Below are positions 4,392-10,386 of a DNA stretch of 64,000 nucleotides, piece after piece. Both the position numbers and the translations under genes were made by a program. The stretch's first letter is position 1, and each line of letters opens with the position of its first letter. Below the pieces are notes generated by a model that saw only the letters and a list, made by a program, of their open reading frames with translations, had not been told where the DNA came from and ran no database searches. The DNA comes from Modestobacter sp. VKM Ac-2982 (GTDB taxonomy: Bacteria; Actinomycetota; Actinomycetes; Mycobacteriales; Geodermatophilaceae): positions 310,001 through 374,000 of the forward strand of contig NZ_JAPVBL010000001.1 of the NCBI RefSeq assembly GCF_026967935.1, read 5' to 3'.

Positions 4392-4414
4392 TCATTTCCC
4401 GACCCCATCACAAA

Positions 4415-4507
4415 GTCGACAAAGGGCCATCCGAGAACGGTCGCCGAGCATTCTCAGCGCCTTTCCGCGACACGCAGCCTGTGGCGAGACCGGGGATTAC
4501 CGGATCC
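4415..4507 (+). promoter_or_regulatory. Conserved receptor upstream element, copy A
   Basis: GTCGACAA (4415-4422), 26 bases, CATTCT (4449-4454), 14 bases, GACAC (4469-4473), 23 bases, TTACCGGATCC (4497-4507). The same blocks recur in identical register before receptors 3 and 4, and partly before receptor 5. Copy B shares CTTTCCGCGACAC with this copy exactly. The element lies between the receptor 1 terminator and the receptor 2 start and leaves a leader of about 205 bases. It is the only thing I see in the 371-base gap 4308-4678 besides the hairpin. A promoter for a dedicated sigma factor with an upstream activator site is the simplest reading, but this is not proven. Confidence 0.55.
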
Positions 4508-4678
4508 TCCACCATGGCGGGTGAAACACCCTCGGAAATGCCAGGACGATCCGGTCCGGCCGGTCCGAGGAGCTGGGCTCCCCCACCGATCCGGAGAACG
4601 CGGCACCTCTCTGGAACGGGTGCAATCGATTCCACCCGCCTCGGACACCCACCGCCGTTCCTGATCTGGAGACCCGCC

Positions 4679-6274
4679 ATGCGCTCCCCCGCCCCGACCG
4701 GCCCGTCGAGCTGGTTCGCCGACCGCCGGCTCGCCGTGAAGTTCGGCCTCATGATCGGCGTCGTCGTCCTGGCCTTCGGGGCCCTGCTGACCGCGACGCT
4801 GACCTCGAACGCCACCGTCCGGGACGCCAGCGCGCACCTGGCGGAGCTGGACGAGGCGGCCGAGCTGGTGCTGCAGCTGGACACCCGGGCCAGTGAGCTG
4901 AAGGTTGACGGCCTCAAGGCCCTGGTGAGCCCCACTCCCGCCGACCAGCTGGTCGACGTGACCGACGACGTCGCGACGGCGGACGCGCTGCTGGACGAGC
5001 TCCGGGACGTCCCGCTGACCGGCGCCAGCGCCGAGGCCGCGACGGCCGTGCAGTCGACCTTCGGCGACTACCAGGAAGGGTTGACGACGTTCGTGCAGGC
5101 GGCCGTGGCCGACCAGGTCGCCATGCGGGCCCGCTTCGAGGAGATCCAGGCCGCCAACGACCTCACCGACGGGGCGGTCGGTGAGGCCAAGGACGCGCTG
5201 GCCGCGGAGTCCGCGGTCGCCCAGGCCGAGCTGGACGCCGCGATCACCCAGGCGGCCCGCACCAGCGAGATCGCCGCGGCCCTGGGACTGGTGGCGATCC
5301 TGGTCATCTGCCTGCTCACCCAGCGTTCGCTGTCCCGGCCGCTGCAGCGGGTGCAGGCGTCGCTGGAGGCCATGGCGACCGGTGACCTGACCGTGGACGC
5401 CGACGTCTCCTCCCGCGACGAGGTCGGCCAGATGGCGGTCGCGCTGGGCACGGCGCAGGAACACCTGCGTGCGGTGATCGCCTCGGTCGCCGCGTCCTCG
5501 GACGCGGTGGCGGCCGCCTCGGAGGAGCTGTCGGCGTCCTCGGCGCAGATCTCGTCCTCGGCGGAGGAGACCTCGGCGCAGTCCGGCGTCGTCTCGGCCG
5601 CGGCGGAGGAGGTCAGCCGGAACGTGGCCACCGTCGCAGCGGGTGCCGAGCAGATGGGTGCCTCGATCCGGGAGATCTCGCAGAACGCGAACGAGGCCGC
5701 CCGGGTCGCCGCCCAGGCCGTGAGCGAGGCCGAGACCACCACCCAGACGATCACCAAGCTGGGCACCTCGTCCCAGGAGATCGGCGCGGTGGTGAAGGCG
5801 ATCACCTCGATCGCGGAGCAGACGAACCTGCTGGCGCTCAACGCCACGATCGAGGCGGCGCGGGCCGGTGAGGCGGGCAAGGGCTTCGCGGTGGTCGCCA
5901 ACGAGGTGAAGGAGCTGGCGCAGGAGACGGCGCGGGCCACGGAGGACATCGCCCGTCGGGTGGAGGCCATCCAGGGCGACACCTCGGGTGCGGTGTCGGC
6001 GATCGGTCGGATCAGCGAGATCATCGGGTCGATCAACGACTTCCAGCTGACCATCGCCTCGGCGGTGGAGGAGCAGACCGCGACGACGAACGAGATGTCG
6101 CGGTCGGTGCAGGAGGCCGCCGGCGGCTCCACCGAGATCGCCACGAACATCACCGGGGTCTCGGCGGCGGCCACCGCGACCACGCAGGCGCTGGGGCAGA
6201 CCCGGCAGGCCGTGGACGAGCTGTCCCGGATGGCCAGCGACCTGCGGGGGAGCGTGGCCCGCTTCACCTGGTGA
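4679..6274 (+). CDS. Methyl-accepting chemotaxis protein 2
   Basis: 531-residue receptor with TM1 at about 20-41, a variable extracytoplasmic sensor, TM2 at about 198-216, HAMP and the MA domain, ending ARFTW. ATG 4679 is chosen because CTGGAG lies 8 bases upstream and the protein then begins like receptors 1 and 3 (basic segment, [14 protein letters not shown]1). The open frame runs further upstream to 4481 but without receptor-like sequence. In the MA domain it carries a [25 protein letters not shown] segment that groups with receptor 5, not with 1, 3 and 4, so this paralogue is mosaic. The ligand is unknown. Confidence 0.92.
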
Positions 6275-6288
6275 CACCGTTCGACCCC

Positions 6289-6326
6289 ACGGCCGGCACC
6301 TCTCTCGCGGGAGAGGTGCCGGCCGT
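6289..6326 (+). terminator. Hairpin terminator after receptor 2
   Basis: Perfect 16-bp stem ACGGCCGGCACCTCTC / GAGAGGTGCCGGCCGT with a 6-base loop, 14 bases after the receptor 2 stop. No T-run follows. Confidence 0.75.
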
Positions 6327-6373
6327 CGGCGTCTCCGGGGCGGTCGTCCACACATCGTCGACCATTTCCGGAT

Positions 6374-6466
6374 GTCGACAAGAAGACGCCCAAAATGCAC
6401 GACCGGACTTTCTTCAACACTTTCCGCGACACACTTCCCGGAGTCGGAACAGATGTTCTCGGAACC
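6374..6466 (+). promoter_or_regulatory. Conserved receptor upstream element, copy B
   Basis: GTCGACAA (6374-6381), 26 bases, CTTTCT (6408-6413), 14 bases, GACAC (6428-6432), 23 bases, TTCTCGGAACC (6456-6466). Spacing is identical to copies A and C. It lies 48 bases past the receptor 2 terminator and leaves a leader of about 137 bases before receptor 3. Confidence 0.55.
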
Positions 6467-6569
6467 CCCATCCTGAATGCGGACCGAGCGCTCTGGCGCA
6501 TCGTCGGTCGAGGCGGCGGTGCGGCCCGTTGTCGCCGCCCATCCCGTTCCACGAGTCGAGGAGACACCC

Positions 6570-8268: not shown

Positions 8269-8361
8269 GTCGACAAGTGGTCGATCACGATGGGTCACCT
8301 GTCTTTGTGTTGCGCCCCATCGGACACGCTCGCCGAATCGGTACCAGCAATTCTCTGATCC
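8269..8361 (+). promoter_or_regulatory. Conserved receptor upstream element, copy C
   Basis: GTCGACAA (8269-8276), 26 bases, CTTTGT (8303-8308), 14 bases, GACAC (8323-8327), 23 bases, TTCTCTGATCC (8351-8361), in the same register as copies A and B. It lies in the 301-base gap 8178-8478, where the only other thing I see is the receptor 3 terminator. The leader to receptor 4 is about 151 bases. Confidence 0.55.
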
Positions 8362-8478
8362 ATCACAATGGTTCGTGGGCGCGCCGATCCACGCATCACT
8401 GTGCGCGGCAGTGATCGCCAGTCCCGTGGGCCCTCGCCCCCTCTTCCCGCTGCTCTGCCTATTGCTCAGGAGATCGAC

Positions 8479-10086
8479 ATGTCCGTCAGCCCGCTGGCCC
8501 GCTCCGGTTCGTTGTGGGGCGACCGCGCCATCAAGACCAAGGTGCTCGCCTCGGCGGGCTTCGCCGGCGTCGTCGCCGCCGGCATCGGCATCCTGGGGAT
8601 GACGGCGCTCAGCGCCTCGGCGGCCTCGGCAGAACAGCTGTACCAGGACAACACGCTCGGCGTGGCCCGGGCTGCGGACCTGGACGCGCTGGTGGGGGAC
8701 CTGCGGGTCAACCTCCGCGACACGATCCTGGGGGCCGATCCGGCAGCGAACATCGCCGCGATCGAGACGCTGGGCACCGACTTCCAGTCCGCGGCGGCCG
8801 CCTACCGCCAGGTGACGGCGAACCCGGAGAAGCTGGCCCTCCTCGAGGAGGTGACCGGTGACATCGCGGCGTACGTCGACTTCCAGCAGGACGTGCTGGT
8901 CCCGCTCGCCCAGGCCCAGGACTTCGCGGGCTGGATGAGCCGCAACGCCGCGGAGGGCACCCCCATGGTCACGGAGGCCGAGGGGGACATCCGCGAGCTG
9001 CGGGACCTGGAGTCGGCGGAGGCCGAGCAGGCGGCCGCGGACGTCCGGACCGACTACGAGGCGCAGCGGACGCTCTCGATCGTGTTCATCGTCGTGGGCA
9101 TCGGCATCGCGCTCGCCCTCGGCTGGTTCGTCGCCACCGGCGTCGCCCGGGCCACCGCGAAGGTCAAGCACGTGGTGGAGGGCCTGGCCGAGGGCGACCT
9201 GACCCGGACCAGCGGCCTGACCACCCGGGACGAGCTGGGGCAGATGGGCCAGGCGCTGGACGCGGCGATCGACAGCCTGCGCGGGGTGATGGCGTCGGTG
9301 GTGGCCTCCTCGGATGCGGTCGCGGCGGCGTCGGAGGAGCTGTCGGCGTCGTCGGCGCAGATCTCGTCCTCGGCGGAGGAGACCTCGGCGCAGTCCGGTG
9401 TCGTGTCCGCTGCTGCGGAGGAGGTCTCCCGGAACGTGGCGACGGTGGCTGCCGGTGCTGAGCAGATGGGCGCGTCGATCCGGGAGATCTCCCAGAACGC
9501 GAACGAGGCGGCTCGGGTGGCGGCGCAGGCGGTGGCGGAGGCGGAGACGACCAACGCGACGGTGATGAAGCTGGGTGACTCCTCGCGGGAGATCGGCAAC
9601 GTGATCAAGGTGATCACCTCGATCGCGGAGCAGACGAACCTGCTGGCGCTCAACGCCACGATCGAGGCGGCCCGGGCCGGTGAGGCCGGCAAGGGCTTCG
9701 CGGTCGTCGCCAACGAGGTGAAGGAGCTGGCGCAGGAGACGGCGCGGGCCACGGAGGACATCGCCCGTCGGGTGGAGGCCATCCAGGGCGACACCTCGGG
9801 TGCGGTGTCGGCGATCGGTCGGATCAGCGAGATCATCGGGTCGATCAACGACTTCCAGCTGACCATCGCTTCGGCGGTGGAGGAGCAGACCGCGACGACG
9901 AACGAGATGTCGCGGTCGGTGCAGGAGGCCGCCGGCGGGTCGACGGAGATCGCCACCAACATCACCGGGGTGTCGGCGGCGGCCACCTCGACCACGCAGG
10001 CGCTGGGGCAGACCCGGCAGGCCGTCGACGAGCTGTCCCGCATGGCCAGCGACCTGCGGGGGAGCGTCGCGCGCTTCAGCTTCTGA
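8479..10086 (+). CDS. Methyl-accepting chemotaxis protein 4
   Basis: 535-residue receptor with TM1 near 20-45, a sensor of about 145 residues, TM2 near 198-222, HAMP and the MA domain, ending ARFSF. ATG 8479 follows CAGGAGATCGAC and gives the same overall length as receptors 1 and 3. The open frame extends upstream to 8368 through the regulatory element, which argues against the longer form. The MA domain is identical to receptor 1 across the [20 protein letters not shown] region, but its C-terminal end (LRGSVARF) matches receptors 2 and 5. It is therefore a patchwork. The ligand is unknown. Confidence 0.93.
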
Positions 10087-10106
10087 TCCGCCGCTCCACC
10101 GAACAG

Positions 10107-10141
10107 CAGGGCCGCACGGACCTCAGGTCCGTGCGGCCCTG
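10107..10141 (+). terminator. Hairpin terminator after receptor 4
   Basis: Perfect 17-bp inverted repeat CAGGGCCGCACGGACCT / AGGTCCGTGCGGCCCTG with a single base between the arms (the real loop must open a few pairs), 20 bases after the receptor 4 stop. Confidence 0.75.
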
Positions 10142-10174
10142 TCGCGTTCCCGGGCCCGGTCACCCGTGCGGCAT

Positions 10175-10234
10175 GTCGACTCGTCGCTCCCGGACGGTGG
10201 TCACCGGCCTTTCTGCTGGTCAGCGGCGCGACAC
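10175..10234 (+). promoter_or_regulatory. Conserved receptor upstream element, copy D (divergent)
   Basis: GTCGACTC (10175-10182), 26 bases, CTTTCT (10209-10214), 15 bases, GACAC (10230-10234). The first two blocks are in the same register as copies A-C. The last spacer is one base longer and the downstream TTCTCGGA-type block is absent. It occupies the 300-base gap 10087-10386, with a leader of about 152 bases to receptor 5. Confidence 0.45.
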
Positions 10235-10386
10235 GCACGGTGGATGGGTGGCCGGGTCGGTCCGCTGCCCGACGATCTGCCGGACGGGACCCAGTCACAC
10301 CCGCCCCACGATCCCCACGCGTGGCGGCCCGTCACGCCACCGACCGATGGACCGGTCGGACCAGCTCGAGCCCAGGAGGCCCCTTC

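Follow-up and report, generated by a model that had tools for sequence, protein, structure and literature searches.

In the chemotaxis (che) cluster of the soil bacterium Modestobacter sp. VKM Ac-2982, receptor genes 2-5 of a tandem array of five are each preceded by a strong hairpin and a set of short sequence blocks; receptor 1 is without the element. The array lies in the 64,000-nt window analysed here (bases 310001-374000 of contig 1, from a genome of 4.78 Mb), and coordinates are those of the window unless another handle is given. Four words and a -10-like hexamer in nearly fixed register make up the element, and words, spacing and placement before chemoreceptor genes are conserved among genera of the family Geodermatophilaceae. 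From this conservation we infer promoter function: the element is probably a sigma70-type, activator-dependent promoter class for chemoreceptors, with each cassette a separate transcription unit.

Conserved words and a -10-like hexamer

A first-pass annotation of the window had pointed out the blocks, and its observation is confirmed as real, stronger than claimed and not due to chance. Block A starts with GTCGAC in all four window copies (4415, 6374, 8269 and 10175), CTTTCT-like blocks begin at 4449, 6408, 8303 and 10209, and GACAC at 4469, 6428, 8323 and 10230, all as that annotation had placed them; its spacings of 26 and 14 nt (15 in the fourth copy) were recovered by script re-reading. 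It had the blocks right but overlooked GGTCACC, between its first two blocks, and the -10-like hexamer. Its third block, at 4497, 6456 and 8351, is present there but is lineage-specific, with little information in other genera. The features follow, all on the + strand. Block A was located by direct reading and pattern match, blocks B to D by script reading (in copy 1 together with cross-site alignment for B and direct reading for C and D), and the predicted -10 by AnnnT at a fixed offset.

4344..4391, +, terminator-like hairpin 3' of receptor 1 (fold -48.0 kcal/mol, z -7.7)
4415..4422, +, block A, GTCGACAA, copy 1
4439..4445, +, block B, GGTCGCC, copy 1
4449..4454, +, block C, CATTCT, copy 1
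4467..4475, +, block D, GCGACACGC, copy 1 (GACAC 4469-4473)
4510..4515, +, predicted -10 hexamer CACCAT, copy 1
6289..6326, +, terminator-like hairpin 3' of receptor 2 (fold -39.8 kcal/mol, z -6.0)
6374..6381, +, block A, GTCGACAA, copy 2
6398..6404, +, block B position, CACGACC (degenerate), copy 2
6408..6413, +, block C, CTTTCT, copy 2
6426..6434, +, block D, GCGACACAC, copy 2 (GACAC from 6428)
6469..6474, +, predicted -10 hexamer CATCCT, copy 2
8189..8222, +, hairpin terminator with T-rich tail, 3' of receptor 3 (fold -39.5 kcal/mol, terminator scan)
8269..8276, +, block A, GTCGACAA, copy 3
8293..8299, +, block B, GGTCACC, copy 3
8303..8308, +, block C, CTTTGT, copy 3
8321..8329, +, block D, CGGACACGC, copy 3 (GACAC from 8323)
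8364..8369, +, predicted -10 hexamer CACAAT, copy 3
10106..10142, +, terminator-like hairpin 3' of receptor 4 (fold -41.9 kcal/mol, z -8.4)
10175..10182, +, block A, GTCGACTC, copy 4
10199..10205, +, block B, GGTCACC, copy 4
10209..10214, +, block C, CTTTCT, copy 4
10228..10236, +, block D, GCGACACGC, copy 4 (GACAC from 10230)
10271..10276, +, predicted -10 hexamer GACGAT, copy 4

A hairpin precedes each of the four copies, as had been claimed, and all are strong (z -6.0 to -8.4), but the terminator scan accepts only the third, with its T-rich tail, so 'terminator' is our reading of hairpins 1, 2 and 4. One further scan match sits within element copy 3; shuffles average 0.9 matches.

A spaced pattern of the blocks matches the whole genome four times on the forward strand, at these four sites, with no reverse and no mirrored-control match. 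Because that pattern was derived from the window sites themselves, the independent test is a profile whose 17 training sites all come from other genera; it recovers all four window sites (E 9e-11, 1e-10, 9e-6 and 4e-5) and has no further match at E<=0.01 in the 64-kb window. Across 112 family genomes the spaced pattern gave 50 matches (34 genomes positive) versus 3 for the mirrored control. Among these matches, 29 loci in relatives (L075-L103) were taken, and in 23 a receptor-like open reading frame (ORF) lies within ~250 nt 3' (by eye). Six with no receptor-like ORF following were dropped by eye (L085, L088, L090, L095, L096 and L097); L080 was retained though the longest ORF after its site is not receptor-like, a receptor being shown there on later analysis. 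The 23 sites and the window's four form a 27-row alignment and a sequence-only model, which finds the four sites in the source genome at E 5e-17 to 7e-13, with the next best match at E 0.006. In a cross-genus hold-out, models trained on either side of the family recovered 25/34 and 26/29 sites on the opposite side, with no match elsewhere at E<=0.01.

The words of the GACAC-anchored alignment are GTCGACA, GGTCACC, a TTTCT-like word and CGACACGC. GACAC, which the founding pattern imposed, is near-invariant across genera and present in all four window copies. Between genera the blocks are 0.70-0.95 identical and the spacers 0.29-0.33, where composition predicts 0.27-0.29 for spacers; the comparison used 48 of the 63 sites described below, filtered for good block A, so the value of 0.95 is inflated. 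The earlier view that the blocks are selected and the spacers diverged agrees with these figures.

An AnnnT hexamer stands 3' of the words at a fixed offset. In 39 of 56 sites the distance from the G of GACAC to its A is exactly 42 nt, and in 55 it departs from this by no more than one base (17 of the 56 were training sites, and 7 of the 63 were omitted as duplicates or for want of GACAC at the anchor). The median count over the tested offsets is 1, and the next highest is 14, at -22, within the upstream words. Among untrained sites 38/39 have AnnnT within one base of the offset, and offsets 7-149 apart from 41-43 never exceed 4/39. Divergent copies read TATGTT, TACCTT, TAACTT or TACGTT, the sigma70 -10 form, and the A and T of TAnnnT are conserved; the first T is present in several divergent copies and is mostly C or G in the source genus, so the match to a sigma70 -10 is limited to the A and T. 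No -35 column is conserved across genera, and window 4290-10400 holds no sigma70 -35/-10 pair (TTGACA at 16-18 nt). The absence of a -35 would be expected of an activator-dependent promoter.

Distribution within the family

Chemotaxis clusters of the window and 20 relatives contain 63 sites at E<=0.01, at least 17 of them training sites; reversed sequence of the same 21 clusters gives none. By script, 62 of the 63 sites are upstream of a receptor gene, and the remaining one precedes a receptor whose match was split in two. A site is present at 58 of 65 non-first receptors and at 4 of 22 first or isolated ones. The first-pass interpretation hung on the blocks occurring at orthologous loci of relatives, and it is not refuted by this comparison.

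With the 27-site model, 100/112 family genomes match at E<=0.05, many weakly, and 66/112 reach E<=1e-5, in 6 of 12 genera (counted by hand; a few are perhaps half-elements). Five of 12 named family cheB loci match at E<=0.01. Four Klenkia-like genomes (genus g9; L267-L269 and L272) have receptor arrays that show no site at E below 0.28, and their gaps from receptor stop to the next signalling domain (923-1005 nt in nine of ten, 1139 in the tenth) are mostly ~200 bp shorter than those of four element-bearing clusters (1122-1373 nt); some g9 genomes have weak whole-genome matches (E 0.002-0.04).

Among the genomes examined, the element class is seen only in Geodermatophilaceae. Sampling 298 genomes across the order, 51 of them from the family (hand count), gave matches at E 1.8e-5 to 8e-4 in five of the 247 non-family genomes; four of these matches appear by eye to lie in coding sequence and one before a glgC-like gene, and we treat all five as chance. 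The 68 named non-family cheB loci, few of which contain receptor gaps, have no match below E 1. Within the source genome, none of 11 receptors outside the array has the word set upstream. One of them (L055) has GTCGACA alone directly before its start codon.

The promoter reading and its rivals

In the reading we favour, the hairpin would end the transcript of the preceding receptor, and a ~100-bp activator-dependent promoter, a short leader and a single receptor gene would then make up each unit. The promoter would have a sigma70-type -10 (C/G/T-A-n-n-n-T), no conserved -35, and four protein-binding words upstream in nearly fixed register. With the first base of the hexamer at -12, the words would start at ~-107 (GTCGACA; ~8 bp closer in some relatives), ~-83 (GGTCACC), ~-73 (CTTTCT-like) and ~-53 (GACAC within CGACACGC). 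Candidate DNA-binding proteins occupying these words would bring in RNA polymerase, which the weak promoter could not hold by itself, and the receptor genes would as a result be expressed apart from the FliA-driven chemotaxis genes. With +1 assumed 12 nt past the first base of the hexamer, starts are predicted at ~4522, 6481, 8376 and 10283, ~7 nt 3' of the hexamers, and the leaders, if the hexamers are real -10s, would be ~157, 89, 103 and 104 nt rather than the 137-205 first proposed. The retained -10 A and T, the missing -35 and the upstream words in register are shared with activator-dependent sigma70 promoters generally; the difference is a four-word set mainly tied to one gene family.

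The first-pass interpretation of a chemoreceptor promoter class is partly supported: in outline it appears to hold once a -10 is included and the third block and FliA are left out. An upstream activator site fits the comparison, although the blocks themselves would lie upstream of the likely core promoter and not form it. 'Dedicated' suits the placement of 62/63 sites before receptors and the fixed hexamer, but it goes too far for the element's upstream half, since that half recurs before an M23-peptidase-type gene and related words occur before cheA (see below).

Several points weigh against this reading. Seven of the 65 non-first receptors have no site, and two relatives (G047 and G087) have receptors but no model match at E<=0.05. 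Block C is weak alone (identity 0.70 versus a composition expectation of 0.53). Block A lies 7-8 bp closer in some relatives (by eye it takes two positions, 23-24 or 16-17 nt 5' of the CGGTCACC word), so not every spacing is rigid. The profile includes the -10 columns, so its matches lean toward sites with a -10; the 27 founding sites were chosen without it, and 24 of them have AnnnT (hand count). Finally, ACCATT overlaps the commonest '-10' and is similar to CCATTC, a word with strong enrichment around the sites, which leaves some room for a protein site there in place of a -10, although the middle bases vary.

In the receptor gaps of G047 and G087, GTCGACA and GGTCA-type words are visible by eye (L270 near 12240-12310; L271 near 13337). 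Because part of the words is visible there, these gaps possibly hold diverged elements.

A more elaborate version, possible but doubtful, would make the four-word elements enhancer-promoters of a receptor-only layer, using the housekeeping sigma, a WhiA-type developmental activator on GACAC and another protein on TGTCGACA/GGTCACC, with receptor content independent of the FliA genes and a link to the M23 gene. Receptor content would then change with cell form or growth stage whatever the FliA-driven genes do, and the occurrence of the upstream half at an M23-type cell-wall peptidase gene would couple the supply of receptors to cell separation. WhiA is a lead only as candidate binder of GACAC. 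A WhiA gene is present in the genome (HTH_WhiA at C12:77591, E 2.8e-19), and no DNA-binding Pfam family was found among 14 che-cluster proteins in a small search for a nearby regulator. In Streptomyces the box of the WhiA-WhiB complex is located 5' of the -35, a placement that would be consistent with -53; we take this too as no more than a lead. WhiA targets in Streptomyces share the asymmetric GACAC; here it stands within CGACACGC, with three further words, and before receptors instead of cell division genes. Published work gives GACAC as the WhiA consensus of Streptomyces (PMC3781837, PMC4850268), and the pentamer alone is very common, with 15,116 copies in S. venezuelae (PMC3781837).

A repressor or nucleoid protein on the blocks, with the promoter at some other place in the leader, is unlikely. 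Such a protein would suit the palindrome-like form of TGTCGACA and GGTCACC, the enrichment of GAATGG/CCATTC, which scores highest of all 6-mers around the sites (74 observed versus 1.4 expected, against a mostly coding background), and the occurrence of related words upstream of cheA. The only strongly enriched AnnnT position 3' of GACAC is nevertheless +42, and a constant spacing of some four helical turns from the -10 is more natural for an activator.

We regard as improbable the idea of an unusual FliA (sigma28) promoter, with the receptors as ordinary late flagellar genes. Chemoreceptors are usually placed among the late flagellar genes under FliA, whose promoters have a TAAA/CTCA-like -35 ~15 nt before a GCCGATAA-like -10. 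The genome has a FliA-like sigma gene in its flagellar cluster, and GTCGACAA resembles that -10, but by eye no TAAA/CTCA-like -35 is conserved upstream of GTCGACAA, and the register to the AnnnT hexamer is fixed. A FliA-type promoter, outside the element, is found before cheB:

13151..13178, +, FliA-type promoter CTCAAG-N14-GCCGATAC before cheB (conserved pattern; cheB by Pfam)

This CTCAAG...GCCGATA pattern is conserved in the window and 12 of the 20 relatives' clusters. It lies directly 5' of the CheB match in the window and in 6 of 12 named family loci, and is placed before cheB by similar flank in the remaining clusters. It has no match in any receptor gap of the 21 stretches, its matches all falling outside the arrays. 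A scan of the window and own-genome stretches for CTCAAG-N-GCCGATAC gave only two matches of >=12/14 (13151, and a 12-point match at 54887). With a FliA type before cheB and a separate element before receptors, one cluster would hold two promoter classes. The element resembles FliA late promoters in standing before chemotaxis genes of the same cluster, and differs in its -10, in lacking a sigma28 -35 and in its four extra upstream words in register.

Control of each receptor by a structured leader RNA, as riboswitch or attenuator, is very improbable. Such leaders precede receptor genes in other bacteria, and a stem-like GAAATG...CATTTC occurs in some relatives; the stem is missing in many copies, however, RNAalifold predicts 0 pairs on the 27-site alignment, and the element is upstream of the predicted -10. 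Rfam returned for window 1-14000 at E<=5 only six matches, all to miRNA families far below gathering scores.

That the blocks are a functionless leftover of recent tandem duplication, or a mobile repeat, is scarcely credible. At the DNA level the five signalling domains share 86-97% identity, a sign of active duplication or gene conversion at this locus, but the upstream regions of receptors 2-5 are only 45-56% identical, as are the N-terminal halves (~50%, 45-56%), spacers are near composition expectation across genera where blocks are kept, full-length sites are not scattered in the source genome, and the cross-genus hold-out contradicts it. The near-identical signalling domains beside N-terminal halves at ~50% suggest gene conversion between receptors.

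If the promoter reading is right, many family members would appear to equip their array receptors with a promoter class of their own, written in a precise code of several words, and to leave cheB with the FliA type. This would offer a handle on receptor supply in motile actinobacteria, with start sites and contact bases predicted, and the ~100-bp element could serve as bait for finding its regulators. No such element was found in titles and abstract openings on Geodermatophilaceae chemotaxis, Actinoplanes FliA, actinobacterial chemoreceptor promoters or promoters in genera of Geodermatophilaceae, a search that left subscription journals mostly outside. Flagellar and chemotaxis genes are reported throughout Geodermatophilaceae, in passages that do not name FliA (PMC9686282).

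Related words and neighbouring genes

The upstream half of the element (TGTCGACA ... CGGTCACCGACCGTTCT) occurs, with its own conserved spacing, before one same gene in 12 loci of genus g2 (L151-L157, L162, L163 and L279-L281); in the single copy tested (L152) that gene encodes an M23 peptidase domain. In the source genome a half-element (L150, C1:697994; E 0.006) precedes a small ORF and a membrane-like protein (...STARYEFER...), and by eye L278, from another genus, has one before a gene similar to that of L150.

Upstream of cheA, TTGTCGACA with CCATT or GGAATG is found in 11/12 own-genus loci (sequence of the twelfth extends just ~190 nt upstream) and 3/4 Klenkia-like loci; these words were not seen in other genera at the cheA loci examined. 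A GTCGACA...CCATTC search of 18 genomes of the genus gave 22 matches versus 2 mirrored controls, ~18 of them at che loci by place or identical sequence, and none in the source genome. At L051:15515-15561, ~440 bp before the window start, CCATTGTCGACATGGGAATGAAACACCATTTC stands upstream of cheA, with similar sequence in 11/12 own-genus loci; 3' of it a FliA-like TTCA-N15-GCCGATGA can be seen by eye.

In the flagellar cluster, four stretches (68 kb) do not have GTCGACA and GAATGG-type words close together. Nine ORFs there were considered, of which four matched Pfam (a sigma factor, two flagellins and FlgK) and the remainder are perhaps not genes. Upstream of two of the three flagellin genes read (L073:5470-5530 and 8250-8300, minus strand; by eye) stand GTTCGGGT..A.ACCGG and CCGTA-like words in common, which may represent another, third type of promoter.

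Gene order in the che cluster is cheA (truncated at the window start), cheW, the five receptors, a Pfam-unmatched protein, cheB and cheR, followed by two receiver-domain proteins flanking one CheX-like protein (Pfam). By CheB similarity the nearest named relatives are Geodermatophilus, Blastococcus and Klenkia. The receptors (methyl-accepting chemotaxis proteins, MCPs) that carry the element are:

4679..6274, +, receptor (MCP) 2 (Pfam MCPsignal, HAMP)
6570..8177, +, receptor (MCP) 3 (Pfam MCPsignal, HAMP)
8479..10086, +, receptor (MCP) 4 (Pfam MCPsignal, 4HB_MCP_1)
10387..12054, +, receptor (MCP) 5 (Pfam MCPsignal, HAMP)

The signalling domains of receptors 1-5 span 3570-4259, 5543-6232, 7440-8129, 9349-10038 and 11323-12012. 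The protein between receptor 5 and cheB, without a Pfam match, has 302 amino acids (12208-13113). The window's single tRNA call is a tRNA-Glu at 27692-27785, which at 94 nt is unusually long for this isotype.

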